Origin: Prescottella agglutinans
GTDB lineage: Bacteria > Actinomycetota > Actinomycetes > Mycobacteriales > Mycobacteriaceae
DNA: 64,000 bases
Assembly: GCF_004011865.1 (NCBI RefSeq)
Contig: NZ_RKLP01000001.1
Coordinates: 62,001 to 126,000, forward strand
Direction of reading: 5' to 3'
Made by a program: the position numbers and the translations under genes. The notes under the pieces were generated by a model. That model was not told the origin of the DNA. It was given only the letters and a program-made list of their open reading frames with translations, and did no database searches. Positions 4,564 to 49,071 of the stretch are shown here, one piece after another; the stretch's first letter is position 1, and each line of letters opens with the position of its first letter.

Positions 4564-4961
4564 TTCGCGGATCCCGATCCGCCCGAGGTGTTCCCTGCGG
4601 CCGGTGACCCGGGGGTGAACCCAGTGCCCAGGTAGGTGAAATGGCCGCTGCGGTAACGGCCGTCGAGGTCCTCGACGTCGATCGTGCTGCCGCCGCCCGG
4701 CGCGGGCCCGACGGTGACGATGTCGTCGTTGTACCGCAGGTATTCGTTGTTGCCGTCGGCCTTGCGGGCCGCCGGCACGTCATCGCGGACGATGCGCGAG
4801 ACGGTGGTACCGACGGGATCCGGTGAGTAGTAGGTGGCAATGTCGCCCTGGGTGCCACGGTGCGCGAACTTGTCGGCGATGTGGTCGCGCACTCCCCCAC
4901 CGCATCCGCTGGTCAGCAGCACCGCGGCGACGGCCAGGGCGCCGAGCATCCCGCGCCTCAC
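4560..4961 (-). CDS. DUF4247 lipoprotein
   Basis: Predicted lipoprotein of 133 residues. The N terminus has two Arg, a hydrophobic stretch and a Cys at about residue 20 (LLTSGC), consistent with lipid attachment although the residue at -3 is Thr rather than Leu. The soluble part is short and ends in a Gly/Ser-rich tail. It matches the DUF4247 family and the place of Rv2599. The GTG start overlaps the DUF2617 stop (GTGA). It probably sits on the outer face of the cytoplasmic membrane beside the DUF350 protein. Function unknown. Confidence 0.78.
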   Translation of the reverse strand: MRRGMLGALAVAAVLLTSGCGGGVRDHIADKFAHRGTQGDIATYYSPDPVGTTVSRIVRDDVPAARKADGNNEYLRYNDDIVTVGPAPGGGSTIDVEDLDGRYRSGHFTYLGTGFTPGSPAAGNTSGGSGSAK

Positions 4962-5461: not shown

Positions 5462-6054
5462 GTGGCGGGGCCCGCGTGGATGACCGTCAGCTCGCCGCGG
5501 GTGACGGCGCGGCCCGTCGACACCTCCCACGACGCGGTCTTCGCCCATCGCTCGAACGCGAGCAGCCCGGTCTCGTCGGCGGTCGCGTAGTCCGCGTAGT
5601 CCATCGACCCGGACGGCGCGGTGCCGGTGGTGCCCTCGGCGGTGAACCGGGCCGAGCCGGACTCGATCTTCCGGTACACCCGGTCGTCGAGGATCACGTC
5701 GCCACCGGGTTCGAGGCCGGTCCCCTCGCGCCGCATCCACAGCGTCATCTCGAGTTCGCCCTCGTCGTCCTCGACCGTGAGCCAGCGCCGCCCCGTGGAG
5801 CCGTCGAGCAGGTGCTCGTGCCAGCGGTATCCCTCCTGGTCGAGGGTGATGGTGCCGCGGACGACGTGGTCGATGCCGGCGTATGTGACGATGTCGCCGA
5901 CGCCGATCTTGTGCGGGTCGTAGACCTCCGGGTAGTCGGCGAGCGGATCGACCCGCCCGGGTGTGGCGGGAGTCCGTGCGCGCCACACGAATACGGCGAT
6001 GCCGGCGATCACAACCAGGATCAGCAGGACAATCAGAAGAATCAGGACAGTCAT
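5458..6054 (-). CDS. DUF4178 membrane-anchored protein
   Basis: First gene of the coupled operon; 198 residues. One N-terminal membrane helix (residues 2-23) is followed by a cytoplasmic or surface domain with the DUF4178 pattern (KIGVGDIVTYAG, then WLTVEDDEGELEMTLW). It matches the Rv2597 position. The ATG at 6054 starts right at the membrane helix, and no upstream frame makes sense as protein. The divergent gap to the VIT1-like gene (6055-6205) must hold promoters for both directions. Function unknown. Confidence 0.8.
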   Translation of the reverse strand: MTVLILLIVLLILVVIAGIAVFVWRARTPATPGRVDPLADYPEVYDPHKIGVGDIVTYAGIDHVVRGTITLDQEGYRWHEHLLDGSTGRRWLTVEDDEGELEMTLWMRREGTGLEPGGDVILDDRVYRKIESGSARFTAEGTTGTAPSGSMDYADYATADETGLLAFERWAKTASWEVSTGRAVTRGELTVIHAGPAT

Positions 6055-6205
6055 CCGGGCAGCGCTCCCCCTACGTCGATTCGGTGCGACGCCAGACCCT
6101 ACCGGCGCACGGCCACGGACAGCCAGTCGCGTCCGAGCGCGGTTGCAGCTTCGGGCAGCCTTGCATTGCTGGTGGATCGGACTCGCTCGCAATAGCCTTC
6201 GGGTT

Positions 6206-6958
6206 GTGACCTCGAACGCGGAGTCCCCCGATTCGACGCACCGCACCTCCAACGGTCCGCACGCCGCCGAACCCCACGTCGGTGCACTCGCGTCGCGCCT
6301 GAACTGGCTGCGCGCCGGTGTGCTCGGCGCCAACGACGGCATCGTCTCCGTCGCCGGCCTGGTCGTCGGTGTCGCGGCGGCCACCACCGACCGCGGGCCG
6401 ATCCTCACTGCCGGGCTGGCGGGCCTGGCCGCCGGCGCCGTGTCGATGGCCCTCGGCGAGTACGTGTCGGTCAGCACACAACGCGACAGCGAGCGGGCGC
6501 TGCTGGCGAAGGAACGTGTCGAGCTGTCGACCATCCCCGAGGCCGAACTCGACGAACTGGCCTCGCTCTACGAGGACAAGGGGCTGTCGCCGGCGACCGC
6601 GCGGAAGGTCGCCGAAGAGCTCACCGCGCACGACGCGTTCGCCGCGCACGCCGAAGCCGAACTGGGCATCGACCCCGACGAGCTCACCAACCCGTGGCAG
6701 GCCGCGATCGCGTCGGCGATCTCGTTCACGGTGGGCGCGATCCTGCCCATGCTCGCGATCCTGCTGCCACCGGCCAGCGCCCGGATCCCGGTCACCTTCG
6801 TGGCGATGCTGGCGGCGCTCGCGATCACCGGCAGCCTCAGCGCCCGACTAGGCGGCGCCAGCCGACCCCGCGCCGTGCTGCGCGTGGTGACCGGCGGCGC
6901 ACTGGCGATGGCCGTCACCTACGGGATCGGCCAGCTACTCGGCGTCGCCGGCGTCTGA
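6206..6958 (+). CDS. VIT1/CCC1-family transporter
   Basis: Membrane protein of 250 residues of the VIT1/CCC1 family, whose characterised members move Fe2+ or Mn2+ into vacuoles or out of the cytosol. The family motif LGANDGIVSVAGLVVG is present in the first helix, then an acidic amphipathic middle region (about residues 95-160, rich in Glu and Asp and probably metal-binding), then three further helices. The GTG at 6206 precedes a short polar N terminus; there is no strong ribosome site. Its 3' end overlaps the convergent phosphatase gene by 24 bases. Confidence 0.85.
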   Translation: MTSNAESPDSTHRTSNGPHAAEPHVGALASRLNWLRAGVLGANDGIVSVAGLVVGVAAATTDRGPILTAGLAGLAAGAVSMALGEYVSVSTQRDSERALLAKERVELSTIPEAELDELASLYEDKGLSPATARKVAEELTAHDAFAAHAEAELGIDPDELTNPWQAAIASAISFTVGAILPMLAILLPPASARIPVTFVAMLAALAITGSLSARLGGASRPRAVLRVVTGGALAMAVTYGIGQLLGVAGV

Positions 6959-34836: not shown

Positions 34837-35645
34837 TGGTACTTCACGCCGCCGAAGCGACGGTCCCGGGACGCGTACTCGACGCACGCCGCCCACAGGT
34901 CGCGGCGGTCGAAGTCGGGAAACAGCTTCTCCTGGAACACCATCTCCGCGTAGGCGGCCTGCCAGATCAGGAAGTTCGACGTCCGCAGCTCGCCGGAGGG
35001 CCGCAGGAACAGGTCGACGTCCGGCATGTCGGGCTCGTCGAGGTACTTCGCGAACGTGGTCTCCGAGACCTTCTCGGGGTCGATCTCCCCGGCGGCGGCG
35101 CGGCGAGCGATTTCCCGTGCGGCGTCGGCGATTTCGGCTCGGCCACCGTAGTTGACGCACATCGTCAGCGTCATCACCGTGTTGTCCTTGGTGAGTTCCT
35201 CGGCGATCTCGAGCTCCTTGATGACGCTGCGCCACAGTCTCGGTCGCCGTCCCGCCCACCGGACCCGCACACCCATCTCGTGCATCTCGTCGCGACGGCG
35301 GCGGATGACGTCGCGGTTGAAGCCCATGAGGAACTTGACCTCGTCGGGGCTGCGCTTCCAGTTCTCGGTGGAGAACGCATACGCGGACAGCCATTTGACG
35401 CCGATCTCGATGCAGCCCGCGACGGTGTCCATGAGGACGTCCTCGCCGCGCTCGTGTCCGGCGGTGCGGGGCAGACCCCGCTCCTGCGCCCACCGGCCGT
35501 TGCCGTCCATCACGAGCGCCACGTGGTTGGGGATCAACTCGGGCTGCAGGATGGGCGGCCGGGCACCCGACGGGTGCGGGAAGGGCGGGCGGATCTCCCG
35601 GTCAGGCTGAGCTTGCGGTTCGCGTCGTCGAATCACGCTCCCCAT
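34833..35645 (-). CDS. uppS: long-chain (Z)-polyprenyl diphosphate synthase
   Basis: Cis-prenyltransferase of 270 residues that builds the polyprenyl (decaprenyl in mycobacteria) diphosphate carrier for cell-wall synthesis. The catalytic Asp and P-loop are in [20 protein letters not shown], followed by [13 protein letters not shown] and the C-terminal [19 protein letters not shown] with the isopentenyl-binding residues. The ATG at 35645 overlaps the recO end by 44 bases; a GTG three codons later is an alternative. It matches Rv2361c. Confidence 0.94.
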
Positions 35646-36417
35646 CCTGCCTGACCGCCTCGGTGTCCCCCACCGCCGCATGCGGTCGGGATCGTTCGAT
35701 CAGGGGCAACGTGCGCAACTGCCGTTCGAGGTGCCACTGCAGGTGCGCGGCGATGAGCCCGCTGGCCTGGCTGCGCATCGCCGGCGTCGCGGTCTCGGTG
35801 TTCTTCCACTGCCCGTGCGCGAGCGCGTCCATGAAGTCGAGCACCCCGGGCGACGGGGTGGCCGCGCCGGGCGGGCGGCAGTGCACGCACACCGCACCAC
35901 CGGCGGCGACGTGGAAGGCGCGATGCGGACCGGGCGCTGCGCACCGCGCGCAGTCGGTGAGGGCCGGCGCCCAACCCGCATAGCCCATCGCCCGCAGCAG
36001 ATAGGCGTCCAGGATCAGTTCGGCGGGCCGGGCCTGCTCTCCCACCGCCCGCAGCGCCCCGACGGTGAGGCTGTGCAGCCGCGGCGCCGGGGCCCGCTCC
36101 TCACCGGCCAGTCGCTCGGCCGTCTCGAGGATCGCGCACGCGGTGGTGTAGCGGCCGTAGTCGTCGACGATGTCGGCCCCGAACGCGTCGACGGTGTGCA
36201 CCTGGGTGACGACGTCGAGGCTGCGGCCGGGATACAACTGCACGTCGATGTGCGCGAACGGCTCGAGCCGGGCGCCGAACTTGGACTTGGTCCGCCGCAC
36301 CCCCTTGGCAACCGCCCGCACCAAGCCGTGCTGCCGGGTCAGCAAGGTCACGATGCGATCGGCCTCGCCCAGCTTGTGCTGGCGCAGCACCACCGCATAG
36401 TCCCGGTACAACCTCAC
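35602..36417 (-). CDS. recO: DNA repair protein RecO
   Basis: Protein of 271 residues that anneals ssDNA and loads RecA in the RecFOR pathway. The N-terminal OB fold holds [24 protein letters not shown]. The zinc site of the C-terminal domain is seen as CARC and CVHC. The GTG at 36417 gives the family start [12 protein letters not shown]. It is followed by uppS as in Rv2362c-Rv2361c. Upstream lies the end of the accessory class V PLP enzyme gene only 42 bases away, so any recO promoter is within or upstream of that gene. Confidence 0.93.
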
Positions 36418-36459
36418 GTGCCCAGTCTCCCACGTCGCACCGACGGCGCCGGGCAACAC

Positions 36460-37581
36460 TCAACGACGCACGTCACGCCCGTCGATCGCGAGCCGCAGGG
36501 CATCGAGCGTCGTGTCGACGTCCGATTCGTCGTTGAAGTAGTGGAACCCGACCCTCAGCCGGTTGCCGGTGACGGTCGCCGCGATGCGGTGCCGGTGGAG
36601 CGACGCGGCGACGTGTTCACCGTCCGGGGTGTCGACAGCCACGATGTGCGACGGCGCTCCCGCGTTGGCCTCGACGCATCCGAGGGCCGCCGCGCCGTCC
36701 CTGAATCGTTGCGCCAACCCGAGACAGTGCGCCTGTGTCCCGGCGCGGTCGAGACCCGACAGAATCGCCAGCGCCGCTTCGGCGCCGATCCACGACAGCC
36801 ACGCGGGAGACGTGTCGCACCGGGACGCGTCGGGCGCCTCCCGGTAGCCGCCACCGAAATATCCCTGAGGAGAGCCGGTGCTCTTCCAACTCGGCGCCAG
36901 AGGTCTCAGTTCCGCGACCCGATCCGGCCGCGCCGCCAGCCACGCGGTGCCGCGTGGACACAGCATCCACTTGTACCCGTGTACCGCGACGTAGTCGGCG
37001 GCGAGTTCGTCGAGCCGGCTGTCGAGCACACCCAGCGTCTGCGTGACGTTGACGAACAAGCGTGCACCCACGGCGTCCGTCGCCCGCCGCAGCTCCCGCA
37101 GATCGACGCGTTCGCCGTCCAGCGTGATGACCTCGCTCGCCGCCACGAGAGCGGTGTCGGGCCCGATCGCGTCGAGCAGGACGTCGGTGCGCGACCGTCC
37201 GGCCACCCGCGGCGCGACTCGGACCCGGTTGTCGTCACCGAGCAGCCGCATCCACGGGTAGAGGTTGCTCCGGAACTCGTCCTCGGCCACCACGATCTCC
37301 CCGACGGTGATCGTGTGGGCCACCGTTGCGGCCGCCTCCGAGAGCGACCCGAGCGTGGCGACCGTTCCGGCCGCCACGCCGAGGTAATCCGCGAACTGGT
37401 CTCGGGCGCGGGCCGCGGCGCCGTCCCAGTGCAGCCAGTCGAACGTCCCCGAGGACCAGTCCTCCAGCGCCCGAGTCAGTGCCGCGGTCACCGGGAGCGC
37501 GGCGGGGGGCGCTCCCGGTGTGTCGAGCCAGATCCGTTCGCCGAGTGCGGGAAACAGCGCCCTGAACTCCGAGTGGTTCAT
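36460..37581 (-). CDS. class V PLP-dependent aminotransferase-like protein
   Basis: Fold-type I PLP enzyme of 373 residues, nearest to the cysteine desulfurase/isopenicillin epimerase-like group. The PLP lysine is probably Lys204 in AVHGYKWMLCPRG. At the position that normally carries the Asp pairing with the pyridine nitrogen (VDATQ in many members), this protein has Asn178 (FVNVTQTLG), and Tyr rather than His precedes the lysine, so its chemistry may differ or be weak. It is the last gene of the accessory operon; its start overlaps the RidA gene stop by four bases. Substrate unknown. Confidence 0.82.
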   Translation of the reverse strand: MNHSEFRALFPALGERIWLDTPGAPPAALPVTAALTRALEDWSSGTFDWLHWDGAAARARDQFADYLGVAAGTVATLGSLSEAAATVAHTITVGEIVVAEDEFRSNLYPWMRLLGDDNRVRVAPRVAGRSRTDVLLDAIGPDTALVAASEVITLDGERVDLRELRRATDAVGARLFVNVTQTLGVLDSRLDELAADYVAVHGYKWMLCPRGTAWLAARPDRVAELRPLAPSWKSTGSPQGYFGGGYREAPDASRCDTSPAWLSWIGAEAALAILSGLDRAGTQAHCLGLAQRFRDGAAALGCVEANAGAPSHIVAVDTPDGEHVAASLHRHRIAATVTGNRLRVGFHYFNDESDVDTTLDALRLAIDGRDVRR

Positions 37582-37982
37582 TCCGGGATCGCCACCACTG
37601 CCTCGATCTCGACGGCGAGTTCCGGTGCCGCGAGCGCGGCGACGACCGCGGCGGAGTGCGCCGGGAAGACACCGTCCGGATACCACCGGGCGAACACCTC
37701 GTCGCGGGCGAGCGCGAACTCGCGGAACGAATCCTCTCCGACGAGGACGGTGAGCATCTTCACGATCTTGTCCGGGCCGACACCGAGGGCATCGAGAACG
37801 GTCTCGAGGTTCTCGAACGTGCGAGCCGCCTGTGCCCGGCATCCGCCCGGCACGATCGCGCCGGTCGCGTCGGCGCCGACCTGTCCGGAGACGAACGCCA
37901 GCCGGTGCCCGGCGGGAACGACGGCGACGTGGCTGAACTTGCCCATCGGGGGTGCCACGTTCGGCGGATTGAAATTGTTCAC
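37578..37982 (-). CDS. RidA-family enamine/imine deaminase
   Basis: Small protein of 134 residues of the RidA/YjgF/UK114 family, which hydrolyses reactive enamines and imines released by PLP enzymes. Family segments LAFVSGQVGADATGAIVPGG and PAHSAAVVAALAAPELAVEIEAVV are visible. The Arg that binds the substrate carboxylate in classical RidA is not evident near the C terminus, so this may be another Rid subgroup. The GTG start overlaps the upstream MDR stop, and it is coupled to the class V PLP gene, its likely partner. Confidence 0.85.
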   Translation of the reverse strand: MNNFNPPNVAPPMGKFSHVAVVPAGHRLAFVSGQVGADATGAIVPGGCRAQAARTFENLETVLDALGVGPDKIVKMLTVLVGEDSFREFALARDEVFARWYPDGVFPAHSAAVVAALAAPELAVEIEAVVAIPE

Positions 37983-38980
37983 GAGCCGATATTCCTTTCG
38001 GTGGAGAAGACGATCTTGCCGAAGCCTCCGGCGCGCGCCATCTCGGCGAGGGCCGCCGGCGCATCCGTGAGTGGTCGGACCGAGTCGACGACGGGTCGGA
38101 TCGAATGCCGCGCGACGAAATCGAGCATGTCGGCGAACTCCTCATCGCTGCCCATCGAGGTACCGATGATCTCGATCTGGCGGAAGAAGATCTCCCGCAA
38201 CGACATCGGAACGCCCGCGCCCGTGGTGGCGCCGAACGTGACGAGCCGCCCGCCCGGACGCAGGGCCCGCACCGCCGCCGGGAAGGCGGCGGCACCGACA
38301 CTGTCGAACACCACGTCCGCCGGTCGTGCGAGTGCCGAATCGAAGTTCTCGTTCCCGACGAGGGCATGGGTGGCGCCCAGTTCGAGCGCTCGATCCGCAG
38401 CGGCCCGGCTGCGGCTGGTCACCGTCACTTCGGCGCCCGCGGCGACCGCCATCGCCAGCGCGACAGGGGCGACGCCACCGCTGATCCCGGTGATGACGAC
38501 GTGCTCCCCGGCACGCAGGCGCGCCCGCGAGAAGAGTCCACGGTAGGCGGTCAACCCAGCTAGTCCGAGCGCCGCCGCCTCGGGCACGGACAGGTGCGGT
38601 GGCACCGGATGGACGTTCCGCTCCGGCACGCACACGTACTCGGCGAACGTTCCGGGTCGTGGGCCTCCGAGAATCTCCGGAACTTCCGGGACCTCGTCGG
38701 TGCGGAGCCAGCCGAGGCAAGGGTTTATCAAGACGGAACGTCCCCGGAGCCGGTCGTCGACGCCGGCCCCGACCGCGTCGACCGTCCCCACACCGTCGGC
38801 GCCGATGACGAGCGGCACGGATCCCGCTTCGCGCCGGTCGATCAGGAACAACTCGTGACGGTTGAGTCCGGCCGCGGCGAGCGCCACCCGGACCTCGCCC
38901 GCGGCCGGGCTCGGAGTCGGCAGTTCGGTGACGGACATCCCCGCGACGCCTGGCGGTCCGGCATGCGTGGCCGCGATCAC
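37979..38980 (-). CDS. zinc-independent MDR oxidoreductase (quinone reductase-like)
   Basis: Medium-chain dehydrogenase/reductase of 333 residues. The N-terminal GroES-like half lacks the catalytic and structural zinc cysteines; the Rossmann half has GISGGVAPVALAMAVAAGAEV (about residues 155-175). Such proteins are NADPH-dependent enone or quinone reductases. The GTG start overlaps the transporter stop (GTGA) and its own stop overlaps the RidA start. In the operon it would reduce or oxidise a pathway intermediate; which one is unknown. Confidence 0.85.
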   Translation of the reverse strand: MIAATHAGPPGVAGMSVTELPTPSPAAGEVRVALAAAGLNRHELFLIDRREAGSVPLVIGADGVGTVDAVGAGVDDRLRGRSVLINPCLGWLRTDEVPEVPEILGGPRPGTFAEYVCVPERNVHPVPPHLSVPEAAALGLAGLTAYRGLFSRARLRAGEHVVITGISGGVAPVALAMAVAAGAEVTVTSRSRAAADRALELGATHALVGNENFDSALARPADVVFDSVGAAAFPAAVRALRPGGRLVTFGATTGAGVPMSLREIFFRQIEIIGTSMGSDEEFADMLDFVARHSIRPVVDSVRPLTDAPAALAEMARAGGFGKIVFSTERNIGS

Positions 38981-40320
38981 GACGTCACCGCCTCTGGCAC
39001 CTTGCCGGTGCGGAGCGAGACGCCGAGCGTCTCGGGTGTGACGAGCGCTGCAAGCAGGCTGATGAGCGCGCCCGCGGCGAGGTACGCGGCGGGCGCGTAC
39101 GTGGAGTGGGTGTAGTTGACCAACGCGGTCGCGACGAGGGGGCCGGCGCCGCCGAACAGGACGACGCCGAGGTTGTAGCCGATGGCGAGGCCGCTGTAGC
39201 GCCGGGAGGTCGGGAACAGTTCCGAGAACAGCGCCGGCTGGGGCGCGAGCATCATCGCATCGCCGATCAGGATCAGGACGACACCGACGAGGATCGTCGC
39301 GAACGAACGCTGGTGGATCAGAAGGAAGCCGATCGGGGTGGTGACAACCACCCAGGCTGCACCCCAGAGCAGGAAAGGCCTGCGGCCCAAGCGATCACAC
39401 ACTCGGGCGAAGGTGACGACCATGACGACGAGGAAGAGCATTGCCACCAGGCACGCTCCCCGGGCAGTCGACGATTCGATGTCCAGTTCGGCGATGAAGA
39501 ATGTGGGGCCGTACACCAGCAGGACGTAGGTGCACATCGTGGGTGCGCACACGAGGCCGCACACCAGCAGGATCGAGCGCCAGTTCTCCCGGAGCGCGCT
39601 CAGGAGCGGGGACCGCTCCTGGGTGCCGCCGGCGGCCATCTCGGTGTATTCCTCGGACTCCTCGAGCTTGAGGCGCATGTACAGCCCGATCATGCCGAGC
39701 GGCAGCGCGAGCAGGAACGGGATCCGCCAACCCCAGGACTGCAGGTCCTCGGCGCTGAGGCTCGCCGTGAGGATCAACGAACTCAACGCGGCGGTGAACA
39801 TGCCGAGGGAGATGGTGATCGTCTGCCAACTGCCGTAGTAGGCGCGGCGGTGTGCGGGAGCGGATTCGACGACGTACGCCGCAGCGCCCATCCATTCGCC
39901 GCCGGCGGAGATTCCCTGGATGCATCGCAAGATCAGGATCAGCAGCGGCGCCGCCACACCGATGCTCGCGTAGGAGGGCACGACCGCCATGAGTGCGGTG
40001 GCGAACGAGATCATCAGGATGATCGCGGACAGCGTCACCTTCCGGCCGAACCGATCGCCGATGTAGCCGAAGAAGATGCCGCCGAGGGGACGAACGACGA
40101 AGCTGATGCCGAAGACGAGGAACGTGAGCATCAACGAGACCGCGGGATCGCCCTTGTCGAAGAACAGGACGGAGAACGTGGCAGCGAAGTAGCCGTAGAG
40201 GACGAACTCGTACCACTCGAGGAAGTTGCCGATGCAGGCGGCGACGATCGCCTTGCGTTTGGCCGGAGACAAAGTGTCCGAATCCGGTTGTGCGACTGCG
40301 GGGGCGGCAAGTTGGGACAT
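38977..40320 (-). CDS. MFS importer of the metabolite:H+ symporter family
   Basis: Transporter of 447 residues with 12 predicted helices. NFLEWYEFVLYGYFAATFS at the first helix and GYIGDRFGRKVTLSA between helices 2 and 3 mark the MHS branch (relatives of KgtP, ShiA and ProP), which imports organic acids, betaines and amino acids with protons. It lies inside the catabolic operon, 40 bases after the ADC-like gene, and is coupled to the MDR gene. It most likely brings in the substrate of the pathway. Confidence 0.9.
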   Translation of the reverse strand: MSQLAAPAVAQPDSDTLSPAKRKAIVAACIGNFLEWYEFVLYGYFAATFSVLFFDKGDPAVSLMLTFLVFGISFVVRPLGGIFFGYIGDRFGRKVTLSAIILMISFATALMAVVPSYASIGVAAPLLILILRCIQGISAGGEWMGAAAYVVESAPAHRRAYYGSWQTITISLGMFTAALSSLILTASLSAEDLQSWGWRIPFLLALPLGMIGLYMRLKLEESEEYTEMAAGGTQERSPLLSALRENWRSILLVCGLVCAPTMCTYVLLVYGPTFFIAELDIESSTARGACLVAMLFLVVMVVTFARVCDRLGRRPFLLWGAAWVVVTTPIGFLLIHQRSFATILVGVVLILIGDAMMLAPQPALFSELFPTSRRYSGLAIGYNLGVVLFGGAGPLVATALVNYTHSTYAPAAYLAAGALISLLAALVTPETLGVSLRTGKVPEAVTS

Positions 40321-40360
40321 GAGTCACTCCTGGGTCGGGGATGACGCGGGGACGGGAGAA

Positions 40361-41158
40361 CTACCAGACGGGCGATCCGAACGTCGGGATGTCGGTGACG
40401 TGATCGAGGTACGTGCCGTAGTCGATGTCGAGGCGGGCGAGTCCGTACGTTGCGCGGACCTCGCTCGTGACACCGAGCAGATGGACGGGGTCGCTGACGC
40501 AGTGCCGGTGTTCCAGCGTCGCCGACCCCGACTGCGGGGAGTGTTCGGACTCGAACGCGAACGGGATCCGGACGAGACGGCTGATGTCGAATCCGTTCCC
40601 CTCCGCGCTCGGAATGAGCTTGAGGGTGTAGTGGGTGGAGAACCACTCCGGCACGAGTTCGGTTGCCGCGCGGGTGCCGTCGAGGGTCACCCGTCCCGCG
40701 ACGAGGTCGACGCCGGCGGCATTCGTCATCGAGTATTCGATGCCGCCCGGAGTCTCGTCGAGCCGTACTCGACGCGCCTGCTTCTTGGGCAGCCCGAACA
40801 GCTCGCGACCGAGGATTCCGTGGTTCAACCCCTCGACGTAGGTGCCGACGGCATAGGCACCGTCGGTACCGTCGGCGTGGCGGCAGCGAACCGAGATGCC
40901 GCCCTGCATATAGGCGGGACGCACCTCCTTCGTACCGTCCGCAGCGGAGAACTCCGCCCCGATGAACTCCGCGATCCACACCGCGACCTGCGGGCGACCG
41001 CCCGGGTCGAGCGGGGTCGGCAGAATCGCGTCGAGCACCTCGCCGTCCGTCTCGTACACCAGCGACAGCCAGCGAACGCGTACCGATTCGGTCCCCGCCG
41101 CGAACAGGGGCGCGAACGCGGGCATCGCCGTGGCCGCCGCTGCGCGTTCGGGTGTCAT
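40361..41158 (-). CDS. acetoacetate decarboxylase-family enzyme
   Basis: Protein of 265 residues of the acetoacetate decarboxylase superfamily. The Schiff-base lysine pair is kept in GRELFGLPKKQARR (about residues 120-133), so it should form a lysine imine with a keto substrate. Family members include true beta-keto acid decarboxylases and enzymes that catalyse aldol or dehydration steps on pyruvate. The ATG overlaps the E1-beta stop by four bases. In this context it probably processes a keto acid of the pathway. Confidence 0.85.
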   Translation of the reverse strand: MTPERAAAATAMPAFAPLFAAGTESVRVRWLSLVYETDGEVLDAILPTPLDPGGRPQVAVWIAEFIGAEFSAADGTKEVRPAYMQGGISVRCRHADGTDGAYAVGTYVEGLNHGILGRELFGLPKKQARRVRLDETPGGIEYSMTNAAGVDLVAGRVTLDGTRAATELVPEWFSTHYTLKLIPSAEGNGFDISRLVRIPFAFESEHSPQSGSATLEHRHCVSDPVHLLGVTSEVRATYGLARLDIDYGTYLDHVTDIPTFGSPVW

Positions 41159-42159
41159 GCGTACACCTCCGAGTCCTCGACGACGAGAGCGGCTTCGATC
41201 TCGGCGACGATCCGCTCGGCGGTGGGCACGATGGCGTCGACGAGGCTGGGCGCGGCCGGAATTCGGGCGGCCGGAGCACCGATACGTAGCGGCGGCTGCC
41301 GAAGCTCGACACCCGAGCACACCACGTCCGCAACGACTTCCGCGCCGAGGCCGGCGAAGGTGTGAGCCTCGTGCACTACCGCAAGACGTCCGGTGCGCTG
41401 CACGGATCGCTTGATCGCGCCGGTGTCGAGGGGGCGCAGCCATCTGGCGTCGATGACCTCGAGGTCGATCCCCTTGGCAGCCAGGGCGTCCGCCGCCTCG
41501 AGCACACGGAACTGCATCGCGCCCCAGGTGACCACGGTCATCGTGGTCCCGGGCCGACGAGTCACGGCGCCGCCGAGCGGCAGGACCGGACCGCCCAGGG
41601 TGACGGGCAGCTTGGCGCCGTGGTAGAGCGTCCGGTTCTCGATGACGATGGTGGGATCGTCGGACCTGATCGAGGTCAGCAGAAGATCGTGAGCGTCCTG
41701 CGCGGTCGCGGGCATGCACACCTGGAGTCCCGGCACGTGCGCGAAGAGCGCCTCGAGGCTCTGCGAGTGCTGTGCGCACGCTCCCGGCGCGCTCCCCTGC
41801 TGCGTCCGCACCGTGATCGGCGCGGACAGCACGCCCTCGGAGACGTACCGGACGTTGGCAGCCTGGTTCACCAACTGGTCGAGCGCGACCAGGGAGAAGT
41901 CCGCCCACATGATCTCGACGACGGGCCGTCGGCCGAACAGCGCCGAACCGATCGCGCCACCCAGAATCGCCGACTCCGAGATCGGGGTGTCGAACACCCT
42001 GTCTCCGAACGCTTTCCGCAGACCCTTGGTAACTCCGAACACCCCACCGGGGGCGGCGACGTCCTCGCCGAACACGAGGGTGGTCGGGTCTTCGGTGAGC
42101 GCGCGGCGCAGTGCTTCGTTGACGGCGCCGGCGTAGGTCAGGTTCTTGGTGTCAGGCAT
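41155..42159 (-). CDS. 2-oxoacid/acetoin dehydrogenase E1 beta subunit
   Basis: Transketolase-like beta subunit of 334 residues. It shows the E1-beta pattern VFGEDVAAPGGVFGVTKGL, FDTPISESAILGGAIGSAL, the TPP-side Glu region EIMWADFSLVALDQ, and a C-terminal transketolase domain. With the alpha subunit it forms a heterotetrameric TPP enzyme that decarboxylates a 2-oxo acid or cleaves acetoin. The ATG at 42159 overlaps the alpha gene end by eight bases. No E2 or E3 gene lies nearby. Confidence 0.9.
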   Translation of the reverse strand: MPDTKNLTYAGAVNEALRRALTEDPTTLVFGEDVAAPGGVFGVTKGLRKAFGDRVFDTPISESAILGGAIGSALFGRRPVVEIMWADFSLVALDQLVNQAANVRYVSEGVLSAPITVRTQQGSAPGACAQHSQSLEALFAHVPGLQVCMPATAQDAHDLLLTSIRSDDPTIVIENRTLYHGAKLPVTLGGPVLPLGGAVTRRPGTTMTVVTWGAMQFRVLEAADALAAKGIDLEVIDARWLRPLDTGAIKRSVQRTGRLAVVHEAHTFAGLGAEVVADVVCSGVELRQPPLRIGAPAARIPAAPSLVDAIVPTAERIVAEIEAALVVEDSEVYA

Positions 42160-43102
42160 AGAGGTGCTCCAGTGCAGTGTGGGGATCGGCGATCGGATCG
42201 TGCAGCGCCCGGTCGGATGCGTCCGCGACCTCGCGGGCGACATCGGCCACCACTGCGTCGAGATCGACCTGCGTCACACCGGATGCCACCAGCGCCTGCG
42301 CGGTACGAACCAGCGGTTCGTCGGGGGTGACCTGCTCGATCTCGCCGTCGGGTCGGTACTGCTGGGCGTCCCCGATGTAGTGGCCGACGAGGCGATGCGT
42401 CATCGCCTCCAGGAGGACGGGCCCCTTGCCGTCTCGAGCGTGTTCCGCGGCCCGGGACATGGCTTCGGCCATCTTTTCTGGGTCGTTTCCGTCGATCCGC
42501 GCACCGGTGAAGCCGTAGATGCCGGCCCGTTTGAACAGGACGTCGTTCTTCACCATGTCGACGATCGGCGTCATCTCCGAGTAGTGGTTGTTCTCGACCA
42601 CGAAGATCACCGGAAGGTTGCGGATGGACGCGAAGTTCATCGCCTCGTGGACGGCCCCCTGATTCAGGGCACCGTCACCGAAGGCCGCCACTGCGACCCT
42701 GCCCGATCCGTCGAAGGTGGCAGCGAGCGCGGCGCCCGCGGCGATCGGCGCACCGGCCCCCACGATCGAATTCTCGCCGTACATCGCGTGCGCCGGCGTG
42801 GAGAAGTAGGCCGATCCGCCGCGGCCACCGTTCGCGCCGGTGCTCCGGCCGAGGAGCTCGGCGAGCACTTCGTGCACGGAGGCGCCGAGGGCCAGCGCCC
42901 AGCCGTGGCCACGGTAGGTCGGAAACACCGCGTCCCGCGAAAGGTCCAGGCCGGCAGCGCCACCGACATAGATGGCCTCCTGTCCATTGCACAGGTGGAC
43001 CGATCCGACGACGTCACCGGCCTTGCGCAACCGGAGAATCTCGTTCTCGGTCGCACGGATTCTGTGCATCTCGCGGAAATATCGGAGCAGAACTCGAGAC
43101 AT
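42152..43102 (-). CDS. 2-oxoacid/acetoin dehydrogenase E1 alpha subunit
   Basis: Alpha subunit of 316 residues. The TPP/Mg motif GDGALNQGAVHEAMNFAS ending in VVENNHY is complete. HLCNGQEAIYVGGAAGL and FPTYRGHGWALALG match acetoin dehydrogenase AcoA and PDH E1-alpha. GGAGGA precedes the ATG at 43102. It starts 65 bases after the IclR gene, a gap where an internal promoter or operator could lie. Which oxo compound it accepts cannot be told from the sequence. Confidence 0.9.
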   Translation of the reverse strand: MSRVLLRYFREMHRIRATENEILRLRKAGDVVGSVHLCNGQEAIYVGGAAGLDLSRDAVFPTYRGHGWALALGASVHEVLAELLGRSTGANGGRGGSAYFSTPAHAMYGENSIVGAGAPIAAGAALAATFDGSGRVAVAAFGDGALNQGAVHEAMNFASIRNLPVIFVVENNHYSEMTPIVDMVKNDVLFKRAGIYGFTGARIDGNDPEKMAEAMSRAAEHARDGKGPVLLEAMTHRLVGHYIGDAQQYRPDGEIEQVTPDEPLVRTAQALVASGVTQVDLDAVVADVAREVADASDRALHDPIADPHTALEHLYA

Positions 43103-43167
43103 GTGTCCTCCACAGTCTGATGGTGATTCGGTAGTAGATGGGTGTCGGCAGCGCGACACGGGCGGCG

Positions 43168-43974
43168 TCAGCGGCCGTCGCCCACCACACGCAGCGGTGT
43201 AGGTGAGGTGGTGCGAAGGTAGGCCGTGGCCCGGTGCGCGACGTCGCGGACGTGCGTGCTCAGCGAGCCGAGATCACGGTTGAATCGAGCGGTCGGCGCG
43301 GACACCGCATAGGCGCCCGACGGCTTGCCGTCGACGTCGAAGAAGGGCGCTGCCACGCAGGACACGCCGACCTCGTACTCCTCGGCATCGATCGCGTAGC
43401 CACGCTGGGCCACCAATCTGAGCTCCGTGGCAAGCGCGTCGTGGTTCGGGATCGTCTTCGGCGTCAGCTGCGTGAAGCTGTCGTCGGGGAGCATCGCCTC
43501 GACGTCGCGCGCCGGCAGGTGCGCGAGGATCGCCTTGCACGATGCGCGAGCGTGCATGTTGCCGGTGTACCCCACGTCGAGGTTTCCGACGTTCAGCATG
43601 TGCAGCCCGGCGATCCACTCCTGCAGCGTGACGGTGCCGTGGTACCAGCCGGAGATGTACACCGTCTCGCGGGTCAGCCGATGCAGCCGGGACAACAGCG
43701 CCGAGAGCGTCGGATCGGGACGGGTGTGATCGGCCACAGTCTTGCTCAGTCGTGCGGCGCGACTGCCGACGATGTAGGTGCCCTTGGGCAGCCTCGTGAC
43801 GAAGCCGTCCTCCTGCAGTGTGCGCAGGATGTGATAGCAGGTGCTGCGGTTGAGATCCAGCTGTCGCGCAAGACTTTTCGCAGACGCCGTGCCATCCGCA
43901 GCCGCTATGGCCTCGAGGACCTCCAAGCCCCGGGACAGCGTGCGCAACGTCGTCCCCTGGTTCGAGGCAGTCAC
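43168..43974 (-). CDS. IclR-family transcriptional regulator
   Basis: Regulator of 268 residues. The winged HTH at the N terminus (LEVLEAIAAADGTASAKSLA then LNRSTCYHILRTL) is followed by the ligand-binding GAF-like IclR domain, with YTGNMHARASCKAILAHL and a Cys in VGVSCVAAPFF. IclR proteins usually control neighbouring catabolic genes in response to an aromatic or organic acid. The GTG overlaps the M20 gene stop (GTGA). It probably controls the accessory operon and perhaps the divergent aminotransferase. Confidence 0.9.
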   Translation of the reverse strand: MTASNQGTTLRTLSRGLEVLEAIAAADGTASAKSLARQLDLNRSTCYHILRTLQEDGFVTRLPKGTYIVGSRAARLSKTVADHTRPDPTLSALLSRLHRLTRETVYISGWYHGTVTLQEWIAGLHMLNVGNLDVGYTGNMHARASCKAILAHLPARDVEAMLPDDSFTQLTPKTIPNHDALATELRLVAQRGYAIDAEEYEVGVSCVAAPFFDVDGKPSGAYAVSAPTARFNRDLGSLSTHVRDVAHRATAYLRTTSPTPLRVVGDGR

Positions 43975-45254
43975 GAAGTCGTCCGCGACGCGAGGGCGAG
44001 AACTGTTCGCGCCAACACCTCAGCCGACGCAACCACCTCGTCCTCCTCGATCGACTCGTCCGGGCTGTGCGCGAGCGCCGTGTCGCCGGGGCCGTAGATG
44101 ATCGTGGGGATGCCGCGGGGGCCGTACTGTGCGGCGTCCGTGGCGGCGGTCATCCCCACCAGCGGAGTCGCCGACCGACGCACAGCGTCGACGCTCTCCC
44201 GGGCCGCCTGCACGAGAGGGGTGTCGGCATCGGTCTGCCATCCCGGCAACTCGTGCTGCCACACGATCCTGCTCGGTCGCGCGCCCCAGCCGGCGTCGGC
44301 GTCGACCTTGGCCACCAGCGCCTCGATCCCCGCCCGCATCTCGTCGAGATCCTCGCCGGCGGCCACTCCCCAGCGACCGGCCATCTCGGCGGTGTCCGGC
44401 ACCGCCGCCCGCCACGTCCCCGCGCGCACGGTCCCCATGACGAACGGGACGGGAGTAGGGATGTCCGCGAAGTACTCGTTCCGGTGCTCCTCGGCCCGTG
44501 CGTCCGCGAGGTCGGAGAGCGCGGAGTGGATACGCATCAGGTGCAGGAAGGCGTCCTGACCGCGCCACGGTGCCGACGTGTGGGCCGAGACCCCGTCGAT
44601 CTCGACACGGAAGAAGAGCAACCCGGTTCCGGCGGGCGCCGCGATCCCGCACGTCGGTTCGAGAACGATGGCCGCGGCCGGCTGCGTGATCCGTTCGAAG
44701 GCGGCGCGGGTGCCGATCCCCGTCGTCTCCTCGGCGACGACCAACTGGACGGCAACGTCGAAGGGCAGTTCCACGTCCAGGTTTCGCAGTGCCTGCAGCG
44801 CGAAGACCCCGGATGTGACGGGACCCTTCGTGTCGACCGATCCACGCCCGTGAACGCGTCCGCCGCGGCGCATCCCGCTGAACGGCGGCAACGTCCACGA
44901 TTCGACGTCTCCGGGAGGCACGACGTCGATATGCCCGTTCAGCACGACCGTCGGCACGTGGTCGCGGGGCGGGCGCGGCCACGCGACGATGTTGCATCGG
45001 TGGTCTAGCCGCGGCTCCGTGGCCGGATCCGCTGCGCGGCCCGTCGCGGTCAGGTGGAGACGTTGCGTCTCGTGGGTCCAGCCGTTCGCATCGAACCAGC
45101 CGGTGAGGAACCCGTGGATCGTGTCTTCGTCGCCGCTGACGCTGGGGCACCGCACCGCGCCGGAGAGGAACTCGAGCATCGGCTCCCGCAGGTCCTCGAC
45201 CGTCTCCTGCAGCCTTCCCACAACTCGTTCGGTGGGCTCGGTCGTCCGGGTCAT
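43971..45254 (-). CDS. M20-family metallo-amidohydrolase (ArgE/DapE type)
   Basis: Hydrolase of 427 residues that cleaves an amide bond in N-acyl amino acids or similar compounds using two metal ions. Ligands and catalytic residues are visible: His/Asp in VLNGHIDVVPPG, the bridging Asp in GRGSVDTKGP, the Glu pair in VVAEETTG, and a final His in DTALAHSPDE. The ATG at 45254 has GAGGT seven bases upstream; an in-frame ATG at 45275 is possible. It is the first gene of the accessory operon and likely acts on the imported substrate. Confidence 0.88.
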   Translation of the reverse strand: MTRTTEPTERVVGRLQETVEDLREPMLEFLSGAVRCPSVSGDEDTIHGFLTGWFDANGWTHETQRLHLTATGRAADPATEPRLDHRCNIVAWPRPPRDHVPTVVLNGHIDVVPPGDVESWTLPPFSGMRRGGRVHGRGSVDTKGPVTSGVFALQALRNLDVELPFDVAVQLVVAEETTGIGTRAAFERITQPAAAIVLEPTCGIAAPAGTGLLFFRVEIDGVSAHTSAPWRGQDAFLHLMRIHSALSDLADARAEEHRNEYFADIPTPVPFVMGTVRAGTWRAAVPDTAEMAGRWGVAAGEDLDEMRAGIEALVAKVDADAGWGARPSRIVWQHELPGWQTDADTPLVQAARESVDAVRRSATPLVGMTAATDAAQYGPRGIPTIIYGPGDTALAHSPDESIEEDEVVASAEVLARTVLALASRTTS

Positions 45255-45585
45255 CGCAACACCTCGTTCGGTCATCCGTTCGTTCGGTGGACCCACGATG
45301 AACTCCGAGCGATGGTTGGGCAACGAGGACGCCGATCGAGTGTCACTATATGAACTTTCGCCCGATCGGACTACTCCGATCGGCGTCGAAGCCCCCGCCG
45401 AGAAGCCATACGTACCGGTCAGTCCATACCGCGACCCGAGATCGCCCTCGCGAAATTTCAGATACCCGGACTCGGCGCCGAGCGATCTCGATGCCGAAGC
45501 CGGTCGGACCTATCGTGACGCGCCTAGGCACCGCGCCGCGGCGCACCGATCCGCGGCTCCCCACAACCCTGGCAGGAGCTTCAGA
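45255..45585. promoter_or_regulatory. 331-base divergent control region of the accessory cluster
   Basis: No gene is seen. The gap separates the M20 gene (left) and the class III aminotransferase gene (right) and must hold both promoters. CCGATCGG occurs twice (45362-45369 and 45376-45383, 14 bases apart), and CCGATCGA occurs at 45332-45339. An AT-rich ACTATATGAA (45346-45355) lies between the copies and could be a -10 region. These copies are candidate sites for the IclR regulator (inference). Confidence 0.5.
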
Positions 45586-46887
45586 ATGACCGAGGCCACG
45601 CTGTACGACCGGCACCGTTCCGTCATGCCCGAGTGGATGTCCCTGTACTACGACGATCCCCTCGAAATCGTCTCGGGGAAGGGACGACACGTCGTCGGTG
45701 GGGACGGACGCACGTATCTCGACTTCTTCGGCGGTCTGCTCGCGACGATGGTCGGCCACGACATCCCCGAGATCACCGAGGCGATCCGCGCTCAGGCGGG
45801 GCGCATCATGCACTCCTCGACGCTCTATCTGATCCGCGCCCAGGTGGAGCTCGCGGAGAAGATCGCGGCACGGGCGCCGGTCGACGATCCACGTGTCTTC
45901 TTCGTCAACTCCGGATCGGAAGCCGTCGAGACGGCCTTCCTCCTCACCAGTTGTGCGAAATCCTCGAATCAGGTCATCGCACTGCGGGGTAGCTACCACG
46001 GTCGGTCGTTCGGCACCGTCGCGGCGACCGGGATCCGAGGGTGGTCGGCCACCTCGCTCAGTCCGTTGCAGGTGACGTACGCGCACAGCGGGTACAAGTA
46101 CCGGAGTCCGTTCGGGCACCTGGACGACGACGCCTACACCTCCGCGTGCGCCGGGGAACTCCGCACGATGATCGAGACGTCCACCTCCGGGAACGTGGCC
46201 TGTTTCATTGCCGAACCGGTGCAGGGAGCAGGCGGTTTCGCGACTCCCCCGGACGGGTTCTTCCTGGCGATGCAAGAGGTGTTGCGGGAGTACGAGATTC
46301 CGTTCGTCTCCGACGAGGTGCAGTCGGGTTGGGGACGAACCGGCAGGTCCTGGTTCGGAATCGAGCACTACGGCGTCCGTCCTCAGGCGATCACGTTCGC
46401 AAAGGGGCTGGCAAACGGCATGAGCATCGGCGGAGTCGTTGCCGAGGAGTCACTGATGAACTCGCTGACCGCGAACTCGATCTCCACGGCCGGCGGCAAT
46501 CCGATGGCGATGGCCGCAGGGAACGCGGTACTGGACTACCTCGAAAACCACGACCTGCAGTCCAACGCGGACCGCGTCGGCGCGCTGCTCTCTGATGGTC
46601 TGCGTGCCATAGGAGCTCGATGCCCGCTGGTCGGTGAGGTCCGCGGTGTCGGTCTGATGATCGGGGTCGAACTCGTGCTGCCCGGCACCAAGGCTCCCGC
46701 TGCGTCGGCGACCACAGCGGTCCTCGAAGAGGCGCGGGCCTCGGGCCTCCTCATCGGTCGGGGCGGATTGCACGGCAACGTCCTTCGCGTCACCCCACCG
46801 ATGACGGTCACCCCGGACGAGGCCCTCGAAGCTCTCTCGATCCTGGAGGCCGTCCTGATGAAGGTGTCGACCGCGGTCGACGGGTGA
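45586..46887 (+). CDS. class III aminotransferase (AGXT2/omega-type)
   Basis: PLP aminotransferase of 433 residues. The PLP lysine is Lys273 in FAKGLANGMS; Asp243 (VSDEVQSGWGRTG) pairs with the pyridine nitrogen; VNSGSEAVETA and SYHGRSFGTVAATG bind the phosphate. The closest known groups are alanine-glyoxylate (AGXT2-like), beta-alanine and 4-aminobutyrate transaminases, which act on amino groups away from the carboxylate. AGGAG lies eight bases before the ATG. It diverges from the M20-led operon and probably works in the same pathway. Confidence 0.9.
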   Translation: MTEATLYDRHRSVMPEWMSLYYDDPLEIVSGKGRHVVGGDGRTYLDFFGGLLATMVGHDIPEITEAIRAQAGRIMHSSTLYLIRAQVELAEKIAARAPVDDPRVFFVNSGSEAVETAFLLTSCAKSSNQVIALRGSYHGRSFGTVAATGIRGWSATSLSPLQVTYAHSGYKYRSPFGHLDDDAYTSACAGELRTMIETSTSGNVACFIAEPVQGAGGFATPPDGFFLAMQEVLREYEIPFVSDEVQSGWGRTGRSWFGIEHYGVRPQAITFAKGLANGMSIGGVVAEESLMNSLTANSISTAGGNPMAMAAGNAVLDYLENHDLQSNADRVGALLSDGLRAIGARCPLVGEVRGVGLMIGVELVLPGTKAPAASATTAVLEEARASGLLIGRGGLHGNVLRVTPPMTVTPDEALEALSILEAVLMKVSTAVDG

Positions 46888-46959
46888 CGATCGGACCCCC
46901 GTCCCGACCGGGACGGAAGTGGCACGTCCGAGATGCCCGGAGGCACTCCTAGGCCAGGG

Positions 46960-47472
46960 TCAGTCGGCCGCGGGTTCGAGGACCATCACCGGAATCCGAC
47001 GGCCCGCGGCCCGCTTCTGGTACTCCGCCCACGCCGGATAGATCGACAACCCGAGTCGCCACAGCCGCTCGCGCTCCGCACCCGTCACCTCGTGTGCCCG
47101 CACCTGCTGCACCGCACCGCCGGCCACCGAGATCTCGGCCCGCGGGTGGGCGCGCAGGTTGTGGTACCAGGACGGGTTGTCCGCCTGCCCGTAGTTGGAG
47201 GCGATGACGACGATCCGGTCGCCGTCCGGCAGACCGAGCAGCGGGGAGGTGCGGCGGACGCCGGTGCGCGCGCCCGTCGTCGTGAGCATGACCACCGGCA
47301 GATCCGTCAGCATGCTCGTCAGGGTCCGCCGCCCCCGGGTGATCCGGAACACCGGGCGGTCGACGTGGTGCAGCGTGCGCGCGAACACCCAGGACACCGG
47401 CGCCAGGCCGCCGATCGAGCGGAACCCGCGCTGAATCGGGTTGGTCTGACGATACGTTCGCATCCGCGCCAT
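46960..47472 (-). CDS. deazaflavin (F420)-dependent nitroreductase-family protein
   Basis: Protein of 170 residues of the Ddn/F420H2-dependent quinone reductase family. The split-barrel pattern is seen in TTTGARTGVRRTSPLLGLPDG, VVIASNYGQADNPSWYHNL and WAEYQKRAAGRRIPV. Members use reduced F420 to reduce quinones or nitroaromatics at the membrane. The ATG at 47472 has GAGGGAG six bases upstream. It lies 20 bases after the small membrane protein gene on the same strand, so the two are probably co-transcribed. Confidence 0.88.
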   Translation of the reverse strand: MARMRTYRQTNPIQRGFRSIGGLAPVSWVFARTLHHVDRPVFRITRGRRTLTSMLTDLPVVMLTTTGARTGVRRTSPLLGLPDGDRIVVIASNYGQADNPSWYHNLRAHPRAEISVAGGAVQQVRAHEVTGAERERLWRLGLSIYPAWAEYQKRAAGRRIPVMVLEPAAD

Positions 47473-47492
47473 CGGTGTCTCCCTCGCGGCTG

Positions 47493-48014
47493 TCAGTTCT
47501 GGGCGAGCGCGGGTCGCGGACCCGGCTCGGCCCGCGCGGTCCGCCGGTACAGCACCAGGAACACCAGTGCGACCAGCGGTTGCAGGAAATCGGTGGGGAT
47601 CGCCCACACGTTCATCGGTTCGGTGTTGTCGTGCGCCGACCACTGCACGATGTGCCCGATGCCGTCGCCCCAGAAGTAGACGATGACGACGAACACGGCG
47701 GCGCTCATCCAGCCGCCGCGGTTGGCCCTCCACGCGCACCCGACGCCGGCGGCACCGATCGCGATGTCGGCCCAGCCGACCTCCCACTGGAACATCGACT
47801 GGGTGTAGCCGATTCCGTCGGCGATGTCGTCCGATGTCGGGCCGATGTGCCCGATGCCGCCGAGCACCGTCCACGCGCCGCCGCCGACCACGAACCACAA
47901 CGCGATCAGTTCGTAGATCCGGGTGCGGGTCCGCCGGTCCGGGTGCCGGTCCAGCGCGATGTGTGCCGCGGCGCCGACGATCAGCACCGCCCACTGGGTC
48001 AGGAAGTACCCCAT
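47493..48014 (-). CDS. small integral membrane protein
   Basis: Protein of 173 residues with about four membrane helices (first at residues 5-20, last near 145-160) and polar loops. I do not recognise a characterised family. The sequence begins MGYFLTQWAVLIVGAAAHIA and contains GGIGHIGPTSDDIADGIGY. It is followed by the Ddn-like gene and may supply it with a membrane partner (inference from spacing only). It closes the accessory stretch before era. Confidence 0.7.
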   Translation of the reverse strand: MGYFLTQWAVLIVGAAAHIALDRHPDRRTRTRIYELIALWFVVGGGAWTVLGGIGHIGPTSDDIADGIGYTQSMFQWEVGWADIAIGAAGVGCAWRANRGGWMSAAVFVVIVYFWGDGIGHIVQWSAHDNTEPMNVWAIPTDFLQPLVALVFLVLYRRTARAEPGPRPALAQN

Positions 48015-48097
48015 GACATCACCAACTCGGTCCGAGAGGCTCGTACACGTCGAGGCGTCAATCGTCGCACGCACAGGACACCGCCGCGCCGGAAACA

Positions 48098-48133
48098 GTC
48101 GTGCCGCTCCCCCGTTCGGAGGAGCGGCACGAC
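48098..48133 (-). terminator. hairpin after era
   Basis: A 13-bp perfect stem (48098-48110 with 48121-48133) with a 10-base loop, 20 bases past the era stop. On the minus strand it is followed by TGTTTCC. Confidence 0.75.
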
Positions 48134-48153
48134 GAGAACCGGCGCGGCAGAGG

Positions 48154-49071
48154 CTAGAACCCCAAGCGGCCCAGCTGCTTCGGGTCGCGCTGCCAGTCCT
48201 TGGCGACCTTGACGTGCAGGTCCAGGAAGATCTTGACGCCGAGGAGCTTCTCGATCTGCTTGCGCGCCACGGTGCCGACCTCGCGCAGCCGGGCGCCGCC
48301 CTTGCCGATCACGATGCCCTTCTGGCTGGGCCGCTCGACGTACAGCAGGGCGTGGACGTCGAGCATCTCCCCCTGCTTCTCGGTGCGCCCCTCGCGCTCG
48401 CGCACCTCCTCGATCACCACGGCCAGCGAGTGCGGCAGTTCGTCGCCGAGACCCTCGAGCGCGGCCTCGCGGATCAGCTCCGCCATGAGCGTTTCCTCGG
48501 GCTCGTCGGTGAGCTCGCCGTCCGGGTAGAACGCCGGGCCGGGCTCCATCAGACCGGCCAGGAGCTTGACCAGCAGCTCGACCTGCTCGCCAGAGACGGC
48601 CGACACCGGGATCACCTCGGCCTCGGGCCCGAGGAGCTTGGAGACCGCCATGAGCTGGGAGACGAGCGCGTCCTTGCTCACCTTGTCGATCTTGGTGACG
48701 ATGCCGACGAGCTTGGTCTTGGGCGCCATCTGCCGCACCTGCTCGAGGATCCACCGGTCGCCCGGGCCGATCTTCTCGTCCGCCGGAATGCACAGGCAGA
48801 TGACGTCGACCTCGGAGTACGTGTCGCGCACGAGGTCGTTGAGGCGCTGGCCGAGCAGCGTGCGCGGTCGGTGCAGACCGGGCGTGTCGACGAGGATCAG
48901 CTGGGCGAAGTCGCGGTGCACGATGCCGCGGATCGTGTGCCGGGTCGTCTGCGGCCGCGACGACGTGATCGCGATCTTCTCGCCGACCAGCGCATTCGTC
49001 AGCGTCGACTTGCCCGTGTTGGGCCGTCCGACGAAACAGACGAAGCCGGAACGGAATTCGTTGTCGGTCAT
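48154..49071 (-). CDS. era: GTPase Era
   Basis: Ribosome-assembly GTPase of 305 residues that binds 16S rRNA. G1 is GRPNTGKST, G3 DTPG, G4 TKID, and the C-terminal KH domain has GIVIGKGGARLREVG. The ATG at 49071 has AGGAG five bases upstream; a GTG two codons earlier overlaps the CorC-like gene stop. It ends the phoH-ybeY-corC-era run, matching Rv2368c-Rv2364c. Confidence 0.95.
   Translation of the reverse strand: MTDNEFRSGFVCFVGRPNTGKSTLTNALVGEKIAITSSRPQTTRHTIRGIVHRDFAQLILVDTPGLHRPRTLLGQRLNDLVRDTYSEVDVICLCIPADEKIGPGDRWILEQVRQMAPKTKLVGIVTKIDKVSKDALVSQLMAVSKLLGPEAEVIPVSAVSGEQVELLVKLLAGLMEPGPAFYPDGELTDEPEETLMAELIREAALEGLGDELPHSLAVVIEEVREREGRTEKQGEMLDVHALLYVERPSQKGIVIGKGGARLREVGTVARKQIEKLLGVKIFLDLHVKVAKDWQRDPKQLGRLGF

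Follow-up and report, generated by a model that had tools for sequence, protein, structure and literature searches.

A stretch of 64,000 nucleotides of the Prescottella agglutinans genome (contig NZ_RKLP01000001.1, positions 62,001 to 126,000), hereafter called the window, carries ten genes between recO and era. Nine of them lie on the minus strand and encode an M20 amidohydrolase, an IclR-family regulator, the E1-alpha and E1-beta subunits of a thiamine diphosphate (ThDP) enzyme, a protein resembling acetoacetate decarboxylase (ADC-like), an MHS symporter, an MDR reductase, a Rid-family protein and a class V pyridoxal phosphate (PLP) enzyme, while a class III aminotransferase (AT3) diverges from them. 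The reading that we favour, with slightly less than even confidence, is that these genes form an IclR-controlled, mobile catabolic regulon for an N-acylated, that is amide-linked, amino compound. The cluster is real, conserved and mobile, and is undescribed as far as the literature was searched; its function we infer from sequence. The earlier note on this DNA knew of no described pathway with this exact gene set, and literature searches, with most subscription journals outside their coverage, revealed none. If the reading is correct, a complete, regulated and transferable pathway, apparently unassigned, sits on plasmid pRHL1 of Rhodococcus jostii RHA1, and its substrate could be sought directly in that strain.

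Recurrence and mobility of the gene set

The earlier note had asked for a search for co-occurrence of the ten families in other genomes, and the set does recur. Sixteen further loci, all in Actinomycetota, hold it complete or nearly complete, and since it thus recurs in 17 loci including the window's own, the set is more than a chance neighbourhood. The other loci come from Prescottella, Rhodococcus, Hoyosella and a genome of the window's own family (G777), from Streptomyces, from a decayed copy in Microbacterium and, eight in number, from a second family. The M20, IclR, E1-alpha, E1-beta, ADC-like and Rid genes are each present in 17 of the 17 loci, AT3 and class V each in 16, and MHS in 15, a sixteenth MHS gene being fragmented in the locus of Prescottella defluvii; presence here means a score above thresholds that were set by the analyst gene by gene. 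Twenty loci were compared, from which L107 and L108 (ADC-like gene only) and L087 (E1 only) were dropped before counting. The compared loci are 16-31 kb long, and more distant partner genes would escape notice. Several of the 17 are near-duplicates, so that they do not represent 17 independent events.

The genome searches used the ADC-like protein as bait, with E up to 1e-30 counted as a strong match. At this level the protein is matched in 3 of the 14 genus genomes, in 4 of 397 genomes from the order and in 1 of 396 from the phylum, the last being the window's own genome. With the ADC-like protein of genome G825 as bait, 10 of 390 second-family genomes gave matches, and the cluster is present in 8 of those. 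Among 121 genomes sampled from the window's family, 12 match at E 0.001, the strong matches being confined to the window's genome and to G024, where the match has the same position as that of Hoyosella YIM 151337. One of the relatives within the genus that have the cluster is P. defluvii (CP121458). Copies on plasmids are found in R. jostii RHA1 (pRHL1), Rhodococcus JS3073 and Streptomyces NBC_00046, and in decayed form in Microbacterium NIBRBAC000506063. In this last copy the M20, MDR, ADC-like and amidase genes are split and class V was not found, and it retains AT3, alanine dehydrogenase (Ald) and the promoter motif described below.

Gene order varies between the loci: AT3 lies within the operon in Streptomyces and G777, the class V, Rid and MHS genes are inverted in Hoyosella, and Rid and class V are divergent in G1072. 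Because gene orders as well as sites differ among loci, the cluster can be regarded as a travelling unit. In the E1-alpha tree (99/100) and in the ADC tree (100/99), G777, which belongs to the window's own family, falls together with the Streptomyces plasmid, the AT3 tree not containing the plasmid in question, and this grouping indicates transfer across orders. The comparisons indicate horizontal mobility of the cluster between distant Actinomycetota of the soil, together with its own IclR regulator. The mean G+C content at third codon positions is 0.852 for the ten genes and 0.897 (standard deviation 0.046) for 53 other predicted genes taken from rough script-made gene calls, a difference that weakly supports a foreign origin. 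The matches to recO and era are separated by 13 bp to 16.3 kb in 13 of the 14 genomes of the genus and fall on separate contigs in the remaining one, and in three genomes the interval contains the cluster; the era-recO interval is one landing site among others. The interval (35602-49071 in the window) is variable across the genus, and G510 carries other predicted genes there (8 kb).

A putative operator in the cluster promoters

A palindromic motif with the consensus TTTCA-N-ATAGT-N-GAAA occurs in cluster promoters of all 17 loci, its first sign having been the word TTTCA-D-ATA common to ten compared promoter regions. The window has two putative operator copies, AAATTTCAGATACCCGGACT (45453..45472, plus strand) and AAAGTTCATATAGTGACACT (45339..45358, minus strand), both of them imperfect palindromes, whereas the best sites are near-perfect, as exemplified by TTTCAGATAGTCGAAA. 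The 20-base motif model was trained on nine loci in two search rounds at low threshold, which ended with 44 sites, some of them outside promoters. At scores of at least 22 the 17 loci yield 32 hits, which occupy 27 distinct places, 5 palindromes being scored on both strands, against a simulated expectation of 0.0 in ten first-order Markov simulations per locus. Compared with the gene positions, every one of these hits falls in the promoter region of either a cluster gene or, for Hoyosella, ald. All 8 loci outside the training carry the motif; the majority are closely related to loci used for training, the remotest being G1072 and G1105. It counts against the regulon that the threshold of 22 was fixed after the motif results had been inspected, and that it excludes two other places in the window, which score 20.5 (14114) and 20.0 (33560).

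When the whole genome was searched for AAAKTTCAKATA with at most one mismatch, two matches were obtained, both in the M20/AT3 divergent promoter, and the reversed control gave one match. Since AAAKTTCAKATA was chosen after the sites had been seen, conservation across loci is the stronger evidence for the motif. The candidate binder is the IclR-family regulator (43168..43974, minus; PF01614 and PF09339, with BhcR, under its cut-off, as the top NCBIfam model), because iclR is present in 17 of 17 loci, and the motif is best read as a predicted IclR site. The ten genes are probably co-regulated, and IclR with bound ligand would open both divergent promoters. A related palindrome, TTCATATAGTGAAA, lies immediately upstream of E1-alpha in L087.

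The proposed pathway and its alternatives

The pathway is likely to begin with import, amide hydrolysis and transamination. The MHS metabolite/H+ symporter (38977..40320, minus; TIGR00883 371 bits, under the cut-off of 443) would take up the amide or the corresponding acid; an ABC or NCS1 importer is added in other loci. The occurrence of ABC, NCS1 and MHS importers suggests several entry routes for a single class of substrate or for its hydrolysis products. The M20 enzyme (43971..45254, minus; PF01546 1.2e-33), which belongs to the ArgE/DapE type with a TIGR01910 score of 221.8 bits above the cut-off of 217.6, would split the amide, in 5 of the 17 loci together with an amidase/SnoaL pair. Its residues HDDEEEH, presumably the metal ligands and the catalytic Glu, are invariant in 17 of 17 loci, and amidase and M20 together suggest amide bonds. 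AT3, of the omega type (45586..46887, plus; PF00202 1.5e-88), retains its PLP lysine, Lys273, in all 16 loci that have the gene and would move the amino group to pyruvate. Ald is linked in the Microbacterium and Hoyosella loci, its position beside AT3 suggests pyruvate as the amino acceptor, and Ald would recycle the alanine; the window's genome has an Ald of its own elsewhere, 58% identical. Among the 17 loci the optional partners, a class in which SDR, SnoaL, amidase, NCS1, ABC and Ald were placed outside the core, are an SDR (7), SnoaL with amidase (5), an ABC permease (3), a solute-binding protein, NCS1 and Ald (2 each) and a degenerate lipoyl-like gene (1).

The later steps are tentative. 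Transamination would leave a hydroxyketone or diketone, whose oxidation level would be adjusted by SDR enzymes and by the PIG3-like MDR reductase (37979..38980, minus; PF00107, PF08240). E1-alpha and E1-beta would cleave the C-C bond beside the carbonyl with no dedicated E2 or E3, in the manner of the acetoin dehydrogenase E1 half. For the ADC-like lysine enzyme, which carries Gln in place of Glu, we propose Schiff-base chemistry that departs from simple decarboxylation or is a modified form of it, and the class V/Rid pair would remove an intermediate of the enamine or imine type. Taken as a whole, an undescribed route in which a hydroxyketone or diketone, made by the transaminase from an amide-linked amino compound, is cut by a free-standing E1-alpha/beta with help from re-tooled ADC-like and Rid proteins is a reading that we hold to be rather unlikely.

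The earlier note arranged the same genes into import, deacylation, transamination and oxidative decarboxylation. The first three are supported by the conserved set, the shared promoter motif, the invariant M20 and AT3 residues and the link to Ald in 2 of 17 loci; support for oxidative decarboxylation is weak, since the ten genes contain neither E2 nor E3. In that scheme E1-alpha (42152..43102, minus; PF00676 4.1e-70; ThDP motif GDGALNQG) and E1-beta (41155..42159, minus; PF02779 and PF02780) are a standard E1 of a 2-oxo-acid dehydrogenase, which takes E2 and E3 from other complexes of the genome and oxidatively decarboxylates a 2-oxo acid derived from transamination, an explanation that we hold to be rather unlikely. 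Both families match models of pyruvate dehydrogenase (PDH) E1, with scores below the NCBIfam PDH cut-offs (E1-alpha 273 bits against 394 and 219 against 411, E1-beta 274 against 321 and 257 against 454), and the window's genome has three E2 loci, matching PF00198, all outside the 64-kb window. E2-type queries, E3 not being searched, were run by tblastn against 10 of the 17 loci. The only E2- or lipoyl-like gene that they found next to E1 is in L071, the G777 locus, where the match of 13.5 bits is under the Pfam cut-off; in the Hoyosella locus L027 an E2-like gene lies about 3 kb from the set, and the remaining matches were on E1-beta. The L027 gene (17786-18565) was not counted in the set because of this distance and because the E1 matches of the locus are elsewhere. 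Further, where PDH has the loop GHSMSD, E1-alpha has GHYIGD in 17 of 17 loci, and a gene annotated as acoA has GHYVGD. Fused E1-alpha/beta relatives, 45-48% identical, sit in clusters with SDRs and with no E2 annotated in their incomplete gene tables, and two of the three clusters include an IolM-type dehydrogenase or a Gfo/Idh gene. E2-free ThDP cleavage is preferred here because E2 and E3 are absent from the ten genes and because the fused relatives are in clusters with no annotated E2. Another E1-alpha/beta pair (56% and 65%) is found in L087 (6173-12480, Rhodococcus USK10 plasmid), accompanied by an IclR (32%) and by a number of SDR-like matches.

A number of observations weigh against this preference and against the regulon as we read it. 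Plasmid relatives 40-41% identical to E1-alpha adjoin an E2, an E2 and an E3, or a lipoyl-containing gene, and two E2-linked relatives have the loops GHYCGD and GHYEGD. Because E2-linked relatives share it, the GHY-x-GD loop does not exclude an E2 partner, and the resemblance to AcoA comes down to a short motif common to E2-linked genes and to an annotation. The E1-alpha tree, built from 14 rows, does not resolve the branching around Thermus acoA and has a very long branch there. Between E1-beta and AT3 of L071 there is a degenerate gene (5395-6249) with a weak match to a lipoyl domain, in which a Pfam scan gave no E2 catalytic domain. It is possible that E1 borrows the genomic E2s and oxidatively decarboxylates a 2-oxo acid. 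Finally, MDR is present in 12 of the 17 loci and absent from 5, and the stretches L107 and L108 place two ADC-like relatives in other clusters, without E1.

A second alternative, which we judge unlikely, divides amide catabolism into two branches: M20 splits the amide, the beta- or omega-amino acid goes to AT3 and Ald, and E1, the ADC-like protein and MDR act on the acyl half only. The linkage of Ald in two loci fits this division, as do the nearest plasmid outgroups of AT3, which adjoin a C-N hydrolase (Streptomyces BHT-5-2) or an aldehyde dehydrogenase (Nonomuraea), but these outgroups are just 51-55% identical and the ten genes include no aldehyde dehydrogenase. A cluster for biosynthesis or for detoxification, such as antibiotic self-protection, with E1-alpha/beta as a carboligase, is very improbable: E2-free carboligases of this kind are known from sugar-branching pathways, and the ADC-like MppR is a biosynthetic cyclase (PMC10367076), but uptake is indicated by IclR and the MHS symporter, to which some loci add a solute-binding protein or NCS1 permease, alanine is recycled, and the ten genes contain no synthetase or export gene.

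The ADC-like protein (40361..41158, minus; PF06314 1.2e-35) has R29, E64, Q85, K125 and K126 in 17 of 17 loci. Lys125, which we take to be the Schiff-base lysine, is what is expected of an acetoacetate decarboxylase, whereas Gln85 is not, since its column holds Glu in 3 of 4 PDB chains named as ADC and presumably corresponds to Glu76 of the Clostridium enzyme, which is needed for decarboxylation. The best solved relative is 3bgt (E 3.9e-8). Two further relatives, in L107 and L108 (46-47% identity), have the same Gln and Lys and different residues at positions 29 and 64; both lie near MHS-like transporters, and in L107 also near M20 and M19 peptidases. The Rid protein (37578..37982, minus; TIGR00004 5.7e-13, under its cut-off) has His109 at the position of the deaminase Arg, and among the 16 readable loci this residue is His in 10 and Gln in 6. 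Its partner is the class V PLP enzyme (36460..37581, minus; PF00266 5.3e-19), resembling cysteine C-S lyases and desulfurases (top PDB chain 1elq, E 5.6e-10), whose PLP lysine is conserved in the 16 loci that have it. According to a 2015 survey, this Arg (Arg105/107) is essential in the imine deaminases RidA/Rid1-3, the groups Rid4-7, which lack it, appear not to hydrolyse imines, and the functions of Rid proteins lacking it were completely unknown (PMC4433059). The favoured regulon would, if true, give a physiological setting to such Rid proteins and to ADC-like proteins that may not decarboxylate, so that two enzyme classes would be re-tooled within one travelling operon.

Several known systems resemble parts of the cluster. 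The cluster shares with acetoin dehydrogenase (AcoABCL) an E1-alpha/beta pair, whose GHY-x-GD loop is also that of the acoA-annotated gene and of E2-linked relatives, and 7 of the 17 loci have an SDR partner; unlike that system, the cluster has no AcoC (E2) or AcoL (E3) among its ten genes, and it includes in addition an amide hydrolase, an aminotransferase, an ADC-like protein and a Rid protein. Ectoine degradation (doeABCD), as generally known, likewise has an M20 deacylase with a class III aminotransferase, an importer and a dedicated regulator, but the regulator is another one, the cluster has no ectoine hydrolase or aldehyde dehydrogenase (DoeA and DoeC are not among the ten genes, the part of the genome searched for them), and its E1-alpha/beta, ADC-like, Rid and class V genes have no counterpart there. 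In the caprolactam pathway of Pseudomonas jessenii, amide opening is reportedly followed by a class III aminotransferase, as in the cluster; we know of no E1, ADC or Rid set in that pathway. The ectoine, pyrimidine (Rut, reductive), pantothenate, taurine/aminoethylphosphonate, caprolactam and aminocyclitol pathways were rejected as candidates, in a comparison from general knowledge, since their defining genes are absent from the gene list. The MppR/ADC-like superfamily shares PF06314 and the Schiff-base lysine with the cluster protein, which differs in its low identity to solved members, its catabolic setting and the Gln at the Glu position; MppR, too, catalyses a reaction other than decarboxylation, within a PLP pathway (PMC10367076).

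Layout of the locus and its neighbours

All ten genes lie where the earlier note had placed them, from the class V stop at 36460 to the end of AT3 at 46887, and the families that it named agree with the Pfam and NCBIfam profile matches. Its overlaps of 4-8 bases along the minus-strand operon are found at 6 of 8 junctions (4, 8, 4, 4, 4 and 4 bases), the other two being gaps of 65 bases between IclR and E1-alpha and of 40 bases between the ADC-like gene and MHS; these figures depend on gene starts picked by ribosome-binding site and overlap, and several of the family scans used longer open frames. An Rfam riboswitch scan of 35500-48200 gave zero matches, and a scan of 43000-45700 for sigma-70-like promoters found none. 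The window's genome comprises 5.4 Mb in 22 contigs. The recO frame starts at 36459, directly past the class V stop, and on the other side a TIGR00026 gene and a DUF6790 gene separate the aminotransferase from era. In P. defluvii a TetR-like gene (recognised by eye) and an amidase (by tblastn), neither of them present in the window, lie between the cluster and recO. In L070 (G506), a PucR-type regulator and a DAO-family oxidoreductase (1677-4684) lie between the TIGR00026-type gene and the cluster.

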